Shown here: positions 4,464 through 21,240 of the stretch, one piece after another
How positions within the stretch are numbered: the first letter of the stretch is position 1
Layout: each line of letters begins with the position of its first letter
DNA from: Convivina praedatoris
GTDB lineage: Bacteria; Bacillota; Bacilli; Lactobacillales; Lactobacillaceae
Assembly (NCBI RefSeq): GCF_933208495.1
Contig: NZ_CAKOET010000003.1
Location: forward strand, 124,001 to 188,000
DNA: 64,000 nucleotides
Direction: 5' to 3'
Program-made: the position numbers and the translations under genes
Notes under the pieces: model-generated
Databases searched by the model: none
Seen by the model: the letters and a program-made list of their open reading frames with translations, nothing else
What the model was told of the DNA's origin: nothing

Positions 4464-4724
4464 ATGACAATTGATCAAATAATCCATCAATTGGCACGTA
4501 GCCTTCAGCCAGTAAGTCATGGTGAACAAAATACCATATATGAAATTCACATTATTAACCAGCGTTATAGCCAGCAACTTAACGTCTTTTTTGAGTGGCA
4601 TCGTTTGGGTCGTGCGACAATTTCCCGCCAAATCGGTACAATTCCTTTTGTTTATGTCCAAAATCTGGATCAAATTGCCCAGAAATTAACAAAAGAGACT
4701 CAGATGAACGTTTTGATTGATTAG
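4464..4724 (+). CDS. uncharacterised 86-residue protein of the SOS operon
   Basis: Starts 2 bases after the YolD-like gene, with GGAGGGG just upstream, so it is almost certainly co-transcribed and SOS-induced. I do not recognise the family. The protein is mixed alpha/beta by appearance, has no signal peptide or membrane segment, and contains no cysteine. A separate promoter begins 26 bases after its stop. It could be a third accessory subunit of the polymerase cassette, but this is only guilt by association. Confidence 0.7.
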   Translation: MTIDQIIHQLARSLQPVSHGEQNTIYEIHIINQRYSQQLNVFFEWHRLGRATISRQIGTIPFVYVQNLDQIAQKLTKETQMNVLID

Positions 4725-4750
4725 TGATTTAAAATAATCTCTAATTATAA

Positions 4751-4779
4751 TTGACATTTTTCTTTAATTTTGTTTTAAT
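4751..4779 (+). promoter_or_regulatory. promoter of the brnQ leader
   Basis: TTGACA (4751-4756), 17-base spacer, TTTAAT (4774-4779). The same pair and spacing recurs before the gshA2 leader at 7904-7932. Confidence 0.75.
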
Positions 4780-4808
4780 AAAAGCACCAAATATATAAGA
4801 GGCACAAG

Positions 4809-4865
4809 ATGTATAACTATCTAGCTAACCACACAGAAATTATTATCAGCATTATTATCCCGTAG
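4809..4865 (+). CDS. Ile-rich leader peptide of brnQ-gshA1
   Basis: Short reading frame MYNYLANHTEIIISIIIP (18 residues) ending in TAG, preceded by AAGAGGCAC as a ribosome site. Six of seven codons at positions 11-17 are isoleucine. The Ile codons overlap the 5' arm of the first hairpin of the leader RNA. This is the layout of a classical attenuation peptide: shortage of charged tRNA-Ile would stall the ribosome here. It stands upstream of a branched-chain amino acid carrier gene, which fits the sensed amino acid. There is no stand-alone function to expect. Confidence 0.75.
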   Translation: MYNYLANHTEIIISIIIP

Positions 4866-4976
4866 GGTAGGTGCTGATACTTTGTGGTGCCTATCATGAT
4901 TCTTAGTGGTAGGCAGCTGATGGTATAGAGAAGAGACCAGCTGCAAATTTTGCAGCTGGTCTCTTTCTTTATTTCT
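4845..4976 (+). promoter_or_regulatory. transcription attenuator upstream of brnQ
   Basis: Hairpin 1: ATCAGCA (4845-4851, inside the Ile codons) with TGCTGAT (4872-4878). Hairpin 2: TGCCTATC (4888-4895) with GGTAGGCA (4908-4915). Terminator: long stem AGACCAGCTGC/GCAGCTGGTCT then TTTCTTTATTT (4932-4976). GCAGCTG at 4913-4919 can also pair with CAGCTGC of the terminator arm, providing an antiterminator. A second GCTGAT (4916-4921) can compete for ATCAGC. The folds are hand-derived. Confidence 0.72.
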
Positions 4977-5037
4977 AGCTTTGTAACAGCTTTGATAATT
5001 AGACAGTAAAGCGAACAGAAATTATGAGGAATGTAAA

Positions 5038-6414
5038 ATGGAAAAACAAAAATTGACCCGGAAGCAGTTATTATTGGTTACTTCCTTAATCTTTGGGATG
5101 TTTTTTGGAGCGGGAAACTTAATTTTTCCGGTTCAATTGGGACAATTAGCAGGCCATAATTGGCTATTGGCTGTCCTTGGATTTCTACTGACTGGCGCAC
5201 TAATGCCATTTTTAGCAATGCTAGCAGTAAGTATGACTAATAGCAAAAGTGTTTATGATTTGGCTGCCCCCGTCGCCCCATGGTTTGGCACGGTGGTCTT
5301 AGTAGCCATTCACTTTACAATTGGTCCCTTATCGGGCACGCCCAGAACAGCAGCTACAGCATTTGCAATGGGGGTTAGTCCCTTTGTAGCTCCGCAGTAT
5401 CAGCAGGGGATGATGCTAATATTTTCGGCTGTATTCTTTGGGTTAGCCTACCTCTTAACGGTTAAACAAGCAGGCTTAACCAAATGGGTGGGTAAGTACT
5501 TAAATCCTCTATTTCTAATCGTTTTGGGTGTTATTTTGGTTTTAGCTTTAATATTGCCAATGGGAAATTTTAATCAAGCGGTATCAGTCACTTATCAACA
5601 AAACGCTGGTTTTCAGGGCATTTTAGATGGCTATAATACGATGGATGGTTTGGCTTTATTGGCGCTAGCTGTGTCAGTTGTCTACGCTGTTCGTGGTATG
5701 GGTTTTCATGGGCAGGCTGTTTCTAAAGTATTAGCAAAAGCTGGATTTTTAAGTATTGTTTTGGAATCTTTGCTTTATGTTGCCTTGGTTTTGTTGGGGG
5801 TATCCAGTCTCGGACAGTTTAAACCCGCTGAAAACGGTGGGGCAGCATTTAGTCAAATTGTGACTCATTATATGGGAAATTTTGGTGTCCTAATAACAGG
5901 TGTTATAGTAACTTTGGCGGTTTTCACAACCGCCATGGGATTGTTTGTTTCTTTTGCCCAAGATTTGAATCGTGTCTTCCCGAAGGTGAGCTACTTATGG
6001 TGGTTACGTGTCATTGCCTTTGGGTCCTTTGTAACGGCTAATGCAGGTCTGACTAATATTGTAAAATGGACTGTTCCTGTTTTAATGTTGCTATATCCCT
6101 ATGCCTTAGCTTTGATTGCCTTATCATTACTTAGTCCTTGGATTAAACAATCTCCTACTATTTATCGCGTTGTTATGGGGTTTGTAACCCCACCTGCTTT
6201 TTTGGATGCTTTTGCTAACTCACCAATTGCTGGATGGAAACCAATTGCAGAATTAGTTGCCAGTTATCATCAGTACTTGCCTTTGGCTGCCGATGGATTT
6301 GGTTGGCTACTACCAGCACTTTTGGGTGGACTAGTTGGTATAACTTGGCAACGAGCTCAGCAAGTTCAATTACTAAAGGATTCAGAAGGTATGGCAGATC
6401 AGGCTTTGGATTAA
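5038..6414 (+). CDS. brnQ: branched-chain amino acid transport carrier BrnQ
   Basis: Integral membrane symporter of the LIVCS family importing Leu, Ile and Val with a cation. It is 458 residues with about twelve hydrophobic segments and opens with the family-typical FGMFFGAGNLIFPVQLG stretch (residues 19-35). The ATG has GAGG ten bases upstream. It follows an Ile-codon attenuator and terminator, so uptake should rise when Ile-tRNA charging falls. A glutamate-cysteine-ligase-like gene follows after 25 bases with no terminator between, indicating an operon. Confidence 0.93.
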   Translation: MEKQKLTRKQLLLVTSLIFGMFFGAGNLIFPVQLGQLAGHNWLLAVLGFLLTGALMPFLAMLAVSMTNSKSVYDLAAPVAPWFGTVVLVAIHFTIGPLSGTPRTAATAFAMGVSPFVAPQYQQGMMLIFSAVFFGLAYLLTVKQAGLTKWVGKYLNPLFLIVLGVILVLALILPMGNFNQAVSVTYQQNAGFQGILDGYNTMDGLALLALAVSVVYAVRGMGFHGQAVSKVLAKAGFLSIVLESLLYVALVLLGVSSLGQFKPAENGGAAFSQIVTHYMGNFGVLITGVIVTLAVFTTAMGLFVSFAQDLNRVFPKVSYLWWLRVIAFGSFVTANAGLTNIVKWTVPVLMLLYPYALALIALSLLSPWIKQSPTIYRVVMGFVTPPAFLDAFANSPIAGWKPIAELVASYHQYLPLAADGFGWLLPALLGGLVGITWQRAQQVQLLKDSEGMADQALD

Positions 6415-6439: not shown

Positions 6440-7894
6440 ATGTCAATTTATTACTCAAATTTCGGTCAAACAATTCGTTTTAATGACCTCAGTCGTCAAT
6501 TAAGTCAGCTAATCATGGGCTTAGAAGTAGAAATGCATCGAGTTAATCGGCAGGATGGTCATTTATCAGATCAGGTATATCCTACTAGCTTGGGGGACCC
6601 TGTCCAACATCATGCCATTAAAAATGATTTTGGTTATACTCAGATGGAAGTTATTACGCCAGCTAATGTTAATGTCTTTGCGAGTTTAGATATGTTGGCT
6701 GCCCTCAATGACACAGTCCGAAAAAATCTAGCCGCTGATGAATCATTGTGGTTATATTCTATGCCACCAGTATTAAATCCTGGACGAACTGAATTTAAAA
6801 TTGCTCCAGCTGATTCAGTTAAGACCGCTTACATGGAAACGGTCGTTGCCCGTCGCGATATTGCTCGTTCAATTACCAGTGGTGTTCATATTAATCTGGG
6901 TTTGGCTTTAGATGTCTTGCATTATGTTTATCATCAATTTTTTGAAGATCAATATCAAAATGAAGTTGACTTTACCAATTCACTCTACATGAAAATTGCC
7001 CAGGGATTGATGCATTATCGTTGGGTTTTCACACTTTTGTTTGGTGAAGCTCCTGTAGCTGATGCTAGTTTTTATGAAGGGCGTGCTTCCTTGCAAGGCT
7101 ATGTTCGTTCAGTACGTAGTTCTAGTTACGGCTTTGGAAATGGTGTTACGGGATCATATCAAGATGTGGATAGCTACATTGCCAAGGTCAAAGAAGATGT
7201 TGCTGTTGGTGATTTAATTGCTGAACGCGAATTCTACGATGTGGTGCGACTCAAGGGACAGAATGAATTAGCTGATTTAGCCACGAAGGGTGTGCAATAT
7301 TTAGAGTTGCGAATGTTTGATCTAGATGCCCTATCTAAAACTGGGGTTAGTGAGGTAATGGTCCAGTTCACGGAATTATTGTTTGCCTACTTGATGATGA
7401 CTCAATCAGTAGTACCAGATGGACATGATGTTGATGAATTTTTGCAAGAAAGTCGACAAAGAAATGAGACGGTTGCCCTGGAAGATCCGTTTAACGTTTC
7501 TAAATACCAAGGGGAGGCCTTATCTCTACTAAGTAATTTAGAAGAATTTGCCTATGATAATCGCTTTAAGGCTGATTGGTTGCCGGAATTACGACGACGT
7601 TTAACTGATCCGCTTGAAAGTCCAGCAGCAAAGTTAATCACTTTCTTAACTGATGATTTTTACCAGGGAATGTTAGCCCTTTCTAACCAACGTCAAATTG
7701 GTCAATTACGATTAAGGGGATTAGCTGGTTTTAGCGATTTACCGCTAAACGAACAAAAACAGTTGCAGGCAGAATTAGTAGCCCACGGTGATGTGAATGT
7801 TGTTAACCGCCGATTGGGAACTTTCTTTGTCCAACATCAAAAGCAAGAATATCTACTGTCAAAAAAGGGTTTATTTCAAAAAAATGAGCAATGA
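6440..7894 (+). CDS. glutamate-cysteine ligase-like protein, copy 1
   Basis: A 484-residue protein of the GshA (glutamate-cysteine ligase) family as found alone or as the N-terminal half of GshF in Firmicutes. Visible family features are GLEVEMHRVNRQDGHLS (metal/glutamate site region), the NDFGYTQMEVITPA motif, FKIAPADS, and RSSSYGFGN. The expected reaction is ATP-dependent gamma-linkage of glutamate to an amino acid, cysteine in known members. It is co-transcribed with brnQ under an Ile-rich attenuator, which is odd for a cysteine-using enzyme. A paralogue lies immediately downstream. No ATP-grasp glutathione synthetase domain is fused, so glutathione itself would need another gene. Substrate is uncertain. 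Confidence 0.82.
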   Translation: MSIYYSNFGQTIRFNDLSRQLSQLIMGLEVEMHRVNRQDGHLSDQVYPTSLGDPVQHHAIKNDFGYTQMEVITPANVNVFASLDMLAALNDTVRKNLAADESLWLYSMPPVLNPGRTEFKIAPADSVKTAYMETVVARRDIARSITSGVHINLGLALDVLHYVYHQFFEDQYQNEVDFTNSLYMKIAQGLMHYRWVFTLLFGEAPVADASFYEGRASLQGYVRSVRSSSYGFGNGVTGSYQDVDSYIAKVKEDVAVGDLIAEREFYDVVRLKGQNELADLATKGVQYLELRMFDLDALSKTGVSEVMVQFTELLFAYLMMTQSVVPDGHDVDEFLQESRQRNETVALEDPFNVSKYQGEALSLLSNLEEFAYDNRFKADWLPELRRRLTDPLESPAAKLITFLTDDFYQGMLALSNQRQIGQLRLRGLAGFSDLPLNEQKQLQAELVAHGDVNVVNRRLGTFFVQHQKQEYLLSKKGLFQKNEQ

Positions 7895-7903
7895 ATTAGA
7901 TTA

Positions 7904-7932
7904 TTGACATTTGAAACAATATTTGATTTAAT
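7904..7932 (+). promoter_or_regulatory. promoter of the gshA2 leader
   Basis: TTGACA (7904-7909), 17 bases, TTTAAT (7927-7932), located 10 bases after the stop of copy 1. It has the same boxes and spacing as the brnQ leader promoter. Confidence 0.75.
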
Positions 7933-7961: not shown

Positions 7962-8018
7962 ATGATTAAGTCAGCATCAATCAAGCTAACAGTGAGCGTC
8001 AGTTCCGTTACCCATTAG
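7962..8018 (+). CDS. leader peptide of gshA2
   Basis: Reading frame MIKSASIKLTVSVSSVTH, 18 residues and a TAG stop, the same length as the brnQ leader peptide. AAGAGGAAA lies upstream as ribosome site. Aligned with the brnQ peptide, its control positions 11-17 read V-S-V-S-S-V-T, so Val and/or Ser codons replace the Ile run. The codons overlap the 5' arm of hairpin 1. The sensed amino acid is therefore probably Val or Ser, but which one cannot be decided from sequence. Confidence 0.68.
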   Translation: MIKSASIKLTVSVSSVTH

Positions 8019-8120
8019 GTAGGAGCTGATCCTTGTGTTGCCTACCATTATCTAGTGATAGGCAGCTGACTTATGAATTACTAAAATCCAGCTGCAATAG
8101 TGTAGCTGGATTTTTTATTT
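7998..8120 (+). promoter_or_regulatory. transcription attenuator upstream of gshA2
   Basis: Hairpin 1: GTCAGTTCC (7998-8006) with GGAGCTGAT (8022-8030). Hairpin 2: TGCCTA near 8039-8044 with TAGGCA near 8059-8064. Terminator: AAATCCAGCT (8084-8093) with AGCTGGATTT (8104-8113), then a T-run. CAGCTG at 8063-8068 can alternatively pair with CAGCTG of the terminator arm. The 60 bases after the peptide stop are clearly similar to the matching part of the brnQ leader. Confidence 0.72.
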
Positions 8121-8151
8121 TCTTAATATAACTCTCAAGGAGTGTGGTACT

Positions 8152-9579
8152 ATGCTTAATCAATATTTTTTACTTGGAAAAATTATTCACTCACAAAACA
8201 CGGATCAATTTATGCAGCAATTGTCTTTTGGCATTGAAGTTGAAGGTCATCGAATTAATCGTAAAACGGGGCATTTATCAAGGACTACATATCCGATTAA
8301 GTTAGGAGATCCAGTCCAACACCAGGCGATTCGCAATGATTTTGGGGATACACAAGTTGAGGTGATTACACCGAGCGGACCAAACTTGGAAGCTAATTTA
8401 GACTTATTAACCGCTTTTAATGACGTTCTTCGTAAGAATTTAGCTGCTGATGAAGCTTTGTGGCTCTATTCAATGCCGCCATACTTATCAGCTGATCGAC
8501 ATGAATTTAAGATTGCACCCGCTGACGAATATAAGCGCAACTATATGCAAACTGTGGCTTCGCGTCGGGATATTGCCCGAACTTTGATTAGTGGTATCCA
8601 CATTAATTTAGGATTACCCTTAGCATTAATGGCTGATATTTATCAGGCTAATTTTACAGATCAATTTACTTCGCCCATTGATTTTATCAATGCCGTTTAT
8701 ATCAAGATTGCCCAAGGATTTATGGCTTACCGTTGGCTATTTACACTGCTTTTTGGCGAATCTCCCTGGGCTGATCAGAGTTTTTATACTAATCGAGAGA
8801 AAAGTTTAAATCATCTGGTACGTTCGGTGCGCAATTCTAGTTATGGTTTTGGTAATGGCGTTTATGGTTCGTATCAATCTGTTGAAAGCTATATCCAAAA
8901 AATAAAAAGTGATGTTCAGAAAGGGGATTTAATTGCGGAACGAGAATTTTATGATGTTGTTCGTCTAAAAGGGGGAGAGAATTTGAATGATTTAGCCCAT
9001 AAAGGCGTTCAGTATTTAGAATTACGTACATTTGATTTAGATCCGTTAAATAAGACTGGCGTATCGGCTATAACAGTTAAATTCACAAAACTGTTTTTTA
9101 CCTATTTACTGATGAATTTTCCGGTTATTTCTGATCAAAAACAGGTAGATCAGTTTCTATTGGCTAGTCGACAAAAGAATGAAAAAGTTGCCTTAGAAAA
9201 TCCGTTTCAGGTTTCAGCTTCTCAAAGGGAGGCCTTAGCACTTTTGGATGATTTAATCAGCTTTGCCCAGGTAGAAAAAATAGCAGCTGACTGGTTACTC
9301 GATTTACGTCGTCGCTTAATTGATCCTGCTGAAATGCCTGCTGTTCAGTTATTAGCACAGTTACCAACTGATATTTATACTGGTTTAGTACAACTGGCTG
9401 ATAATCGTCAACGGGTTCAATGTCAAATACCAGCCTTAAACGGTTTTGCTGATTTATCACCAATGGTATCTCATCGCTTACGTCAATCGATTGAACAGCA
9501 TGGACAGATTAAGATTGTTGATCGTAAACAAGGAGTTTTTGTTTTACAAAGAAATCATAAAAGTATCACCTTAACATAA
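8152..9579 (+). CDS. glutamate-cysteine ligase-like protein, copy 2
   Basis: A 475-residue GshA-family paralogue of the gene at 6440, similar over its whole length. Shared blocks include GIEVEGHRINRKTGHLS, GDPVQHQAIRNDFGDTQVEVITP, FKIAPADE, RRDIAR, RNSSYGFGNGVYGSYQ and LIAEREFYDVVRLKG. It has its own promoter, leader peptide and terminator, so it is controlled separately from copy 1. The ATG has AAGGAG about 11 bases upstream. Expected activity is ATP-dependent gamma-glutamyl ligation. Retention of two differently regulated copies suggests distinct acceptors or conditions. Function beyond the family is inference. Confidence 0.82.
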   Translation: MLNQYFLLGKIIHSQNTDQFMQQLSFGIEVEGHRINRKTGHLSRTTYPIKLGDPVQHQAIRNDFGDTQVEVITPSGPNLEANLDLLTAFNDVLRKNLAADEALWLYSMPPYLSADRHEFKIAPADEYKRNYMQTVASRRDIARTLISGIHINLGLPLALMADIYQANFTDQFTSPIDFINAVYIKIAQGFMAYRWLFTLLFGESPWADQSFYTNREKSLNHLVRSVRNSSYGFGNGVYGSYQSVESYIQKIKSDVQKGDLIAEREFYDVVRLKGGENLNDLAHKGVQYLELRTFDLDPLNKTGVSAITVKFTKLFFTYLLMNFPVISDQKQVDQFLLASRQKNEKVALENPFQVSASQREALALLDDLISFAQVEKIAADWLLDLRRRLIDPAEMPAVQLLAQLPTDIYTGLVQLADNRQRVQCQIPALNGFADLSPMVSHRLRQSIEQHGQIKIVDRKQGVFVLQRNHKSITLT

Positions 9580-9902: not shown

Positions 9903-10985
9903 TTAAACAATATCTAAATGTAAATCATTTTCCTTACTTTGACCTAATTTCCGTAAAAGCCGATAAAACAATAGGCTTAAGACAGCCGGAAGGGCTGCCC
10001 CAAAGACCATCGTTAATAATAGGGCTCGCGGATTAGTCAATAAGGCGATAGGGGCGATGAAACCATTTAATCCCAAACCAGAAATTGCGTACGGCACTTT
10101 TAATTGGAAAAATCCAACTGCTAAAGTAGCAGAGAACCCAGCAATCGCAGCGGGGCCTAACCACAACCAGTAATTTTTAAGTAAGTTAGGGAATTGAACC
10201 TTGGGTGTTACCACAAATTGGGCAAAACGAGCGCCCCAATCATTTTGGGTCCAACTCATCGCTGTAAACATCACAAACCCAGCCGTAGTACCAACCAGGG
10301 CAGCTCCTGCGGAAAGGGGATCAAGCATGACCGCGATGGCTAAGGCGGCTGAAGATGCTGGAGTCATTAAAAATAGGAACCAGAAGACACCCACAATAAA
10401 GGCGCCCAAGAAAGGATTTACTTGCATGGTTTCAGCTAGTTTTTCAGAGACCCAATTTAGCATTGGGGTAGTAAAGGAGGCGAAGAATAGACCGGTTAAA
10501 GCGCCCAGTAAAGTGGCACCAAAAGGAACTAGCATCATATCAAATTTAGTCCGACCTGATAGCCAGTTTCCAACTAAGACGGCAACAATGGCAGCCAAGA
10601 TGGCTGAAATTGGTTGACCGCTGGTCATCACTAGGGAACCTGCGGGTTGATTAGCCAACCAGCCAGTGGCAGTTTTGGTACCCACCACGGTAGTAGCTGA
10701 AAAGTAGACAGCGTTGGAGCCGACAGTAGCAGAAATCAGGGCAGCCCCAGTTGTTAAAACATTAGCCCGCATGGCAATGGCAATGCCAACACCTAAGGCG
10801 GGGGCTAACATTTTTTGTCCCATCAAGCCGGCCTGGACTAGCGGTTGAAAATGAATCCAGCTACCTACTGATGCCAATAATAGTCCCATTCCTAGCACGG
10901 ATAGAATGGAATAAGAAATTCCCTGTGATACTTCATAGACAATTTCGGATTTAGTCTGTGGTCGAACTTTTGATGTGTTTTCCAT
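9903..10985 (-). CDS. PTS EIIC-like membrane permease (PTS_EIIC_2 type)
   Basis: A 360-residue polytopic membrane protein with about nine to ten hydrophobic helices. It resembles the PTS_EIIC_2 family of stand-alone IIC-like permeases: ISYSILSVLGMGLLLASVG near the N-terminus, LGVGIAIAMRANVLTTGAAL, and FGATLLGALTG. There are no EIIA or EIIB genes nearby, so classical phosphotransfer is doubtful and the substrate is unknown. The leader upstream carries an Ile/Val-rich peptide, two terminator hairpins and a cre site, implying control by branched-chain amino acids and by carbon catabolite repression. The ATG has AGGAGAG seven bases upstream. Confidence 0.66.
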   Translation of the reverse strand: MENTSKVRPQTKSEIVYEVSQGISYSILSVLGMGLLLASVGSWIHFQPLVQAGLMGQKMLAPALGVGIAIAMRANVLTTGAALISATVGSNAVYFSATTVVGTKTATGWLANQPAGSLVMTSGQPISAILAAIVAVLVGNWLSGRTKFDMMLVPFGATLLGALTGLFFASFTTPMLNWVSEKLAETMQVNPFLGAFIVGVFWFLFLMTPASSAALAIAVMLDPLSAGAALVGTTAGFVMFTAMSWTQNDWGARFAQFVVTPKVQFPNLLKNYWLWLGPAAIAGFSATLAVGFFQLKVPYAISGLGLNGFIAPIALLTNPRALLLTMVFGAALPAVLSLLFYRLLRKLGQSKENDLHLDIV

Positions 10986-16238: not shown

Positions 16239-16265
16239 ACTTTTACCAATTAAAAAAATATCAGT

Positions 16266-16350
16266 ATACCAGTGCCACGTTCCTACGCTAGTGCTAACTA
16301 GAATCAGGTTCAATGGGTATAATCTCAGCCAAGTTGGCACCCCAGTGGAC
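16266..16350 (-). promoter_or_regulatory. TPP (thiamine pyrophosphate) riboswitch
   Basis: The minus strand carries the THI-box landmarks in order: GGGGTGCC, GGCTGAGA, TATACCCATTGAACCTGAT, GTTAGCACTAGCGTAGGAA and a closing GTGGCACTGG. It controls tenA-thiD-thiE-thiM by the terminator that follows. Confidence 0.95.
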
Positions 16351-16496
16351 AAATACAGTATTCAATTTTGCGGCATATTTACTACGGTCTCAGTCTAGCA
16401 TATTGATTTATAAATTGTCTATTTAATTTAATTATTAAAATTAAATGATAAAAGCTTGATATTTCTCATAATTAAGTTATACTTAAAACCAATTAA

Positions 16497-16769
16497 TAAA
16501 CAAAAGCAAAAATAAGAGCTGTCGCATGGATGAATCTTTAGCGAGTATTGGGTTGGTGGAACAATACGATTTTTCATGGTTTGGCAATCACTCTTTAGCA
16601 AGTGCACTGAATTAAGTAAGCGCACTCGGCTGCAACCGTTACCCTGCCAGCGTATCGCTTTATGCCGTACGTGAAGACCTTACGAGTAATAGTGAGGTAA
16701 AATAAGGTGGTACCGCGCGTTAGCGCCCTTATCTTTTCTACTTATGTAGAGGGGATGGGGCGCTTTTTG
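16497..16769 (+). promoter_or_regulatory. T-box leader, probable tRNA-Ile specifier
   Basis: The conserved T-box sequence AAGGTGGTACCGCG lies at 16704-16717, followed by a terminator with AGCGCCC/GGGGCGCT arms and T5 (16721-16769). Stem I can be drawn with basal pair TAAGAG/CTCTTTA, a middle helix CATGGATGAATC/GATTTTTCATG and a distal stem GTATTG/CAATAC. The remaining loop ends GGCA-ATC-AC, placing ATC (16587-16589) as specifier by analogy with the Trp T-box in this window. The UGGU bulge predicts a tRNA with A73, true for tRNA-Ile. The T-box call is strong; the Ile assignment is moderate. Confidence 0.8.
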
Positions 16770-20964: not shown

Positions 20965-21240
20965 ATCGTCCAATAAACCGATGAGATGGAGATCAAACCA
21001 GTTGTGCACGCAAAGGGAGCCCGGGATACTGAGAGCTGGGACGAACGCAAATTGGCAAATGGACCATCGAGGGTCTGCTGAAAGCATTATTGCAAGTAGG
21101 TTAGAACGTTACGACATACGTCAGTTGTCAGGCCTGTGTTAGCAGGCTGTGGAGAGTGGTTATCGAAAGGTAGCTGAAAACAGGTGGCACCGCGGGAAAA
21201 CCGTCCTGATTTTGTGAAAGCAATTTCTGGGCGGTTTTTT
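20965..21240 (+). promoter_or_regulatory. T-box leader, tRNA-Trp specifier
   Basis: T-box motif CAGGTGGCACCGCGGG at 21181-21196. The terminator AACCGTCC/GGGCGGTT with T6 ends near 21240. Stem I: basal GATG/CATC, middle CCAGTT/AATTGG, distal CCCGG/CTGGG with GGATAC and GAGAG loop motifs. The specifier loop then reads CAAA-TGG-AC, giving TGG (21060-21062). The UGGC bulge predicts G73, which fits tRNA-Trp. It controls the trp operon. Confidence 0.92.

Follow-up and report, generated by a model that had tools for sequence, protein, structure and literature searches.

In front of brnQ in Convivina praedatoris lies what is, with a probability that we put at about 90%, a ribosome-mediated transcription attenuator through which brnQ responds to the level of charged tRNA-Ile. 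The better-supported form of the switch would be a cascade of six RNA segments, in which pairings 1:2, 3:4 and 5:6 terminate transcription and pairings 2:3 and 4:5 allow read-through. The reading is strongly supported computationally by the parts present, by their conservation, by co-variation of five helices and by the dependence of 2:3 on ribosome position; termination and read-through themselves, the response to Ile and the kinetic trapping of 2:3 are what we infer. The whole stretch that we analysed (64,000 nt; hereafter the window) had received an initial annotation that placed an Ile leader peptide and attenuator in front of brnQ at positions 4751-4976. All the parts that it listed there (promoter, ribosome site, 18-codon ORF, hairpins and terminator) are present in the sequence, and its coordinates are right:

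4751-4779, + strand: promoter of the brnQ leader, with -35 TTGACA at 4751-4756, a 17-nt spacer, -10 TTTAAT at 4774-4779 and a TG preceding the latter
4797-4802, + strand: ribosome-binding site of the leader ORF, sequence AAGAGG
4809-4865, + strand: leader ORF MYNYLANHTEIIISIIIP, with ATG at 4809, stop codon TAG at 4863-4865 and 18 codons, six of them Ile
4844-4860, + strand: segment 1, containing the Ile-Ser-Ile codons
4865-4879, + strand: segment 2, predicted to pair with segment 1 in the terminating form or with segment 3 in the read-through form (4866-4876 with 4885-4895)
4885-4897, + strand: segment 3, predicted partner of segment 2 or 4
4906-4924, + strand: segment 4, of which 4906-4914 can pair with segment 3, and GCAGCT at 4913-4918 with AGCTGC at 4939-4944 in segment 5
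4933-4946, + strand: segment 5, the 5′ arm of the terminator
4950-4973, + strand: segment 6, the 3′ arm of the terminator and its T-rich tail
5038-6414, + strand: brnQ, branched-chain amino acid carrier (TIGR00796, E 2.9e-95, above the cut-off)
6440-7894, + strand: glutamate-cysteine-ligase-like gene (PF04262), starting 25 nt after brnQ

This layout has the features of the attenuator class. Judged from sequence only, the leader ORF has both a start codon and a ribosome site, and its regulatory codons form a run; an intrinsic terminator sits between the ORF and the gene (a terminator scan reports it at 4933-4963, with a 17-pair stem and a T-rich tail); and the product matches the amino acid of the codons, as does ilvD in homologues. 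The leader TAG lies at the loop end of hairpin 1:2. Folding the region, as the initial annotation had suggested, gave a structure far more stable than shuffled sequences (-78.8 versus a mean of -46.3 kcal/mol; z -7.9; none of 200 shuffles as stable). An ATG-initiated ORF of 8-40 codons with six Ile in eight codons arose in only 3 of 20,000 dinucleotide shuffles of positions 4725-5037, and the brnQ leader is the sole such Ile-run ORF on either strand of the window. The promoter at 4751-4779 was absent from a simple promoter scan, which accepts a -10 only if its second letter is A. Among 56 homologous elements, a promoter-like site matching at least 11 of 13 positions was found within 100 nt upstream in 42, and one matching at least 9 of 13 in 53, as raw counts without a shuffled control. 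The BrnQ protein shares 96% identity with BrnQ of C. intestini DSM 28795, and brnQ is probably transcribed together with the ligase-like gene at 6440-7894. In the computed fold, segment 3 (the TGTGGTGCC region) has a possible partner in AGGCACA at 4800-4806, next to the ribosome site of the leader, perhaps as an extra layer of control, perhaps as a mere competitor.

With Ile plentiful, the ribosome would pass the six Ile codons and arrive at the stop codon at the loop of 1:2. While there it would cover segment 2, and after its release 1:2 would form; in either case 3:4 would pair, leaving segment 5 free for segment 6, and the terminator would end transcription. With Ile short, the ribosome would halt on the Ile codons and cover segment 1, so that 2:3 would pair before segment 4 exists and segment 4 would be left free for terminator arm 5. 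Once 4:5 had formed, polymerase would continue into brnQ and Ile uptake would rise. Hairpin 1:2 would likewise stay intact, and termination follow, if the ribosome halted at an earlier point of the leader or if there were none.

Related leaders precede brnQ at 29 of 63 BrnQ loci; model R1, built from brnQ leaders, was run on 49 of these loci, and the other 14 were assessed solely by an ORF scan that seeks Ile runs and is limited by a few short upstream stretches. Two of the 29 score weakly with the model and are also based on reading (L055, 28.4 bits; L056, 25.6 bits). At seven loci of Leuconostoc, ~800 nt separate the leader from the brnQ downstream of it, and in both that we examined (L044 and L050) a hydratase-like ORF lies between the two. 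The brnQ ORF of another locus, L063, is short and looks broken. From 61 rows we curated 56 elements, having dropped five without a leader (four palindromes or terminators on the minus strand and a single match on the plus strand). In 54 of the 56, the end of the stop codon falls between -2 and +5 nt from where segment 2 begins, and in 53 the terminator arms align, the exceptions being L033, where the sequence reads N, and L055 and L063, where the model misplaces the arms.

We compared the pairing energy of each element's own segment partners with that of partners exchanged among elements in 10,000 permutations, for 26 clade representatives that we chose from the 56, relatedness among which stays in the test. 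Pairings 1:2, 2:3 and 3:4 co-varied, with no permutation as good as the observed pairing in 26 elements. Two representatives have no aligned terminator and were omitted from tests involving segment 5; among the other 24, 5:6 co-varied (0 of 10,000 permutations as good) and 4:5 did so more weakly (6 of 10,000). The control pairs 1:3, 2:5 and 3:5 showed no co-variation in the same test on representative elements. Absence of covariation, which the initial annotation had named as one result that would refute its reading, was thus not observed.

Column by column, in an alignment of 46 sequences that was fitted to the terminating form, 91.2% of the cells of that form are paired, 33 of 38 pairs have changed on both sides, and the covariation score is 0.499, versus 0.212 when shuffled and at most 0.124 when slid. 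For the read-through form in the same alignment, 79.8% of cells are paired versus 76.7% when shuffled, the score is 0.204 versus 0.159, and the number of pairs with double changes, seven, was matched by 203 of 500 shuffles. We attribute these modest counts in part to a pairing register that differs between subtypes. Taken together, the comparisons indicate that two mutually exclusive sets of pairings have been kept, 1:2, 3:4 and 5:6 on the one hand and 2:3 and 4:5 on the other. Such opposed sets are what defines a six-segment (his-type) attenuator, and one of the two conserved structures would disrupt the terminator, with the case for 4:5 being the weaker part.

Equilibrium folding up to segment 5 with a stalled ribosome yielded no dominant 2:3 in the window element, and for this reason the RNA was also folded as made up to segment 3 with a ribosome footprint on each codon in turn, a scheme that assumes co-transcriptional order. 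The placement of the regulatory codons is such that a ribosome there is predicted to free the read-through pairing: of 26 elements, 25 had more 2:3 with the footprint on Ile/Val codons than on early ones, as did 24 when the footprint was longer, the exceptions being L128 with both footprints and also L125 with the longer one. The mean number of expected 2:3 pairs was 8.5 at Ile/Val codons, 1.9 at early codons, 0.2 at the stop codon and 1.2 without a ribosome; the highest value at the stop was 3.4 pairs (L059). The brnQ element of the window was the weakest responder of the 26 (mean 2.0 pairs, maximum 6.3), an effect that we ascribe to RNA near its ribosome site competing for segments 2 and 3. 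Once the RNA upstream was masked in full, the optimum for this element at the segment-3 stage was 2:3. In five elements the predicted switch is not a clean one, since 2:3 was not confined to ribosomes on Ile/Val codons: it formed even without a ribosome in L128 (8.5 pairs), L132 (8.4) and L050 (5.3), and with a ribosome on early codons in L128 (8.6), L127 (6.1), L132 (5.6) and L125 (4.6).

When four elements were folded to equilibrium up to segment 5 with the ribosome on Ile/Val codons, 3:4 won or tied in three (the brnQ element, the second window copy, described below, and L131), and 2:3 won at two Ile codons in L129. Read-through would therefore need co-transcriptional, that is kinetic, trapping of 2:3. 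In the brnQ element, this calculation also gave ~5-7 pairs of 4:5 for a ribosome placed on early codons; the presence of 4:5 is thus not diagnostic by itself.

The initial annotation had proposed a simpler switch, in which ATCAGC in segment 1 (4845-4850) pairs with either of two GCTGAT copies, at 4873-4878 and 4916-4921, with no 2:3/4:5 read-through form. Both copies are indeed present, and own 1:4 partners beat swapped ones (1 of 10,000 permutations as good). However, co-variation of 1:4 is expected as a by-product of pairings 1:2, 2:3 and 3:4, the probability of 1:4 in the window element is near zero at every ribosome position computed, and a choice between 1:2 and 1:4 offers no way to disrupt the terminator once a ribosome covers segment 1. 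In single ribosome positions of other elements, expected 1:4 pairs reach 2.2 (L129) and 3.9 (L131). We rejected a plain 1:2 or 1:4 choice as the main mechanism on the near-zero value in the window element; the repeated motif is real, and that it is the main switch is quite improbable. It is highly unlikely that the peptide itself acts, as effector or arrest peptide, or that control falls on translation rather than on the terminator. The Ser of IIISIII is kept in most of the listed homologues, which could reflect a constraint on peptide sequence, but its codon sits in helix 1:2, which accounts for the conservation; moreover, the core shifts from Ile to Val runs with the helices unchanged, and the terminator arms are alignable in nearly all elements, as given above.

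A T-box or other ligand-binding riboswitch is an extremely remote alternative, even though T-boxes are common in the Convivina genome (20 matches at E 0.001 or better, five of them over the cut-off) and one lies just upstream of its second brnQ, with a specifier that reads, uncertainly and by eye, as GUA (Val). In Rfam 15, no family reaches its gathering score over 4751-4980, where matches up to E 5 are far under their cut-offs, and there is no T-box core; we therefore rejected a T-box, a riboswitch or any Rfam family as the identity of the element. The T-box core GGTGGNACC occurs within 400 nt upstream in 12 of the 63 BrnQ loci and in none of the 29 that carry the leader. Equally hard to credit is a chance meeting of an upstream gene's terminator with an accidental Ile-rich ORF. 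An upstream ORF on the same strand does end at 4724; against this stand the leader's own promoter, the stability of the fold, the rarity of such an ORF in shuffles and conservation with co-variation in several genera. We also counted in favour of the attenuator reading that leader residues fit gene function, in BCAA carriers and ilvD. Elsewhere in the window, a TPP riboswitch at 16262-16354 (- strand) is the only Rfam match at gathering score, and two T-box matches under the cut-off lie at 16500-16733 and 20972-21211 (both + strand).

The window contains two further attenuator copies:

7904-7932, + strand: promoter of the second copy (TTGACA, 17 nt, TTTAAT)
7962-8018, + strand: second leader MIKSASIKLTVSVSSVTH, ending in a stop codon, with Val, Ser and Thr codons
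7980-8124, + strand: second six-segment attenuator (R1 70.8 bits, R2 95.4 bits, fold z -6.3)
8152-9579, + strand: second glutamate-cysteine-ligase-like gene, downstream of the second attenuator
11187-11119, - strand: third leader MKTLSKSQLNQIIVISPIVIII, ending in a stop codon, with Ile and Val codons
11120-11023, - strand: hairpins and terminator (11039-11023) of the third attenuator, diverged, with the same six-segment logic
9903-10985, - strand: PF13303 (PTS_EIIC_2) membrane protein, behind the third leader

The leader of the second copy (7962-8124) has no Cys codon. Read against Val leaders, it keeps Val at -8, -6 and -3 from the stop and has Ser or Thr in place of other Val codons; with Val partly replaced in this way, the specificity of this copy may have changed. 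Both tandem ligase-like genes, at 6440-7894 and 8152-9579, score under the cut-off of the GshAB model; they may make gamma-glutamyl dipeptides. With R1 the third element reaches only 22.4 bits, and it is missing from the R2 matches. Its five pairings can form (-9.2 to -13.7 kcal/mol, for hand-picked segments and without a shuffled control), and the ribosome scan gave 6.6-6.9 pairs of 2:3 at codons -11 to -2; at earlier codons the value was no higher than 1.3, and at the last Ile codon and the stop it was 0.1. Homologues of the PF13303 protein elsewhere also have Ile/Val leaders (L133, L213 and L224).

The covariance model R2 found matches at E 0.001 or better in 106 of 397 Lactobacillaceae genomes, in a search whose strict filter misses some members and whose weak matches include chance terminators. 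Outside the family, no match exceeded 40.4 bits in searches of the order (295 genomes, which include some Lactobacillaceae) and of the class (299 genomes), and matches of 30-40.4 bits occurred in 20 order and 4 class genomes. The four of these 24 that were read (L217-L220) have no leader rich in BCAA codons. Within Lactobacillaceae, some matches of 35-36 bits are true leaders. We conclude that strong covariance-model matches are restricted to Lactobacillaceae among the genomes searched, and that rare members may occur outside it.

A convincing BCAA-rich leader was recognised by eye at 65 of 78 places read in the family and the order, a set that leaves out L144, which repeats L058, and L143, which has no leader. 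The downstream protein was assigned for 72 of the 78: 32 MHS-type MFS proteins, nine IlvD, five BrnQ, four XRE-like regulators, three hydratase-like proteins, three PF13303 proteins, one YkvI-like permease and 15 that are none of these, with the reference proteins for IlvD, regulator, hydratase and permease drawn from the same set. The labels XRE-like and YkvI-like are our assumption, made without family-search support. Among representatives checked, IlvD was clear, the MFS protein scored 415.3 bits against a TIGR00883 cut-off of 443.45, and the hydratase-like protein was far under the cut-offs. BCAA-rich leaders also stand before proteins that we take to be regulator-like in L176, L188, L199 and L200, of which L176 has no NCBIfam or Pfam match and L199 no Pfam match. 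Single places show further peculiarities. In L169 the leader precedes a beta-glucoside PTS gene, which may be a chance neighbour. Three Leuconostoc leaders of the LILSVIVIIT type (L130, L135 and L136) have no ORF downstream in the fetched stretch, and that of L136 looks frameshifted. In L139 the IlvD-like ORF ends early and, by eye, looks broken.

To place the Ile and Val leaders on a phylogeny, we used a tree of 36 chosen BrnQ proteins, leaving out L036b, a row with internal stops, L063 with its short ORF and the seven Leuconostoc Ile loci. The Val-leader label requires five changes on this tree, all five forced by well-supported branches; shuffled labels need 9.6, and one of 500 shuffles was as low as observed. 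Leaders with different codons also precede paralogues within single genomes: Ile in L034 and Val in L033 of F. ficulneus, mostly Ile in L056 and Val in L058 of Weissella minor, and Ile in L063 (outside the tree) and Val in L055 (a long branch of unsure place) of L. fallax. Tandem copies in Fructobacillus provide further Ile/Val examples. We conclude that, on this tree, brnQ leaders appear to have undergone at least five changes between Ile and Val, in one direction or the other. Exchange of leaders between paralogues may be an alternative to re-coding.

Attenuation by leader peptides is a classical mechanism, as is its six-segment his form. In the his attenuator of Escherichia coli and Salmonella, segments A-F pair as A:B, C:D and E:F to terminate and as B:C and D:E to read through. 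In his, and as we propose here, a ribosome stalled on the regulatory codons covers the first segment; the brnQ leader differs in its Ile/Val codons, its occurrence in Lactobacillaceae and the transporters among its main targets, and the likeness is one of logic.

Rli60 of Listeria monocytogenes is also a Firmicute BCAA leader peptide, for which ribosome-mediated transcription attenuation of ilv-leu was tested with mutants; it differs in having four described segments, a 13-aa peptide and biosynthesis genes as targets (PMC5864092). The Staphylococcus aureus ilvD leader also combines a BCAA-rich peptide with a terminator, in this case a Leu-rich 26-aa peptide before a biosynthesis operon, and the same source cites predicted attenuators in Lactococcus and Streptococcus (PMC5794164). 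Terminator, antiterminator and anti-antiterminator hairpins together with a BCAA leader peptide are described for Corynebacterium glutamicum ilvBNC; this system differs in its three hairpins, its 15-aa mixed BCAA peptide, its actinobacterial host and its biosynthetic target (PMC11857589). Lactobacillar LIVCS (BrnQ) carriers are under T-box control, which shares with the brnQ leader the kind of gene, the input (uncharged tRNA of one BCAA) and the antitermination output; there the tRNA is bound directly without a leader peptide, whereas the brnQ leader has no T-box motifs (PMC2494555). In bacilli, His leader peptides replace T-boxes before hisS paralogues, so that a leader peptide again stands in the T-box's place in Firmicutes, although for His and in bacilli; neither brnQ nor isoleucine occurs in the main text of that paper (PMC2965389). 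His T-boxes are listed for Lactobacillales and His attenuators for other orders in a further source (PMC9413887).

Among the matches listed in a search of open-licence literature, there was no account of a six-segment attenuator family in Lactobacillaceae; an earlier prediction elsewhere is possible. The mechanism is known, and what appears to be new is the family, within a classical kind of attenuator. We lean slightly towards a broader reading, taken as a whole: that the window element belongs to an undescribed six-segment attenuator family, which has turned up to date in Lactobacillaceae only and works as a re-codable sensor of amino acids; that its leaders before brnQ have gone from one of Ile and Val to the other five times or more; that the scaffold also stands before MHS-type MFS, ilvD, PF13303, regulator and ligase genes; and that the Convivina copy at 7962-8124, with its Val, Ser and Thr codons, may have a new specificity.

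In the usual view, T-boxes and CodY are the means by which lactic acid bacteria sense amino acids. The leaders described here suggest a parallel, family-wide sensing of Ile and Val by translating ribosomes, in a genome that has a T-box on a paralogous brnQ. Since the amino acid can be read from the codons, the leaders give a hint of what the MHS-type MFS, PF13303 and ligase-like genes do, and, if the re-codable-sensor reading is true, it should be possible to predict from leader codons which substrate or pathway several uncharacterised transporters serve. Repeated re-coding between Ile and Val would amount to a natural codon-swap experiment, which would make the evolution of sensor specificity directly testable.
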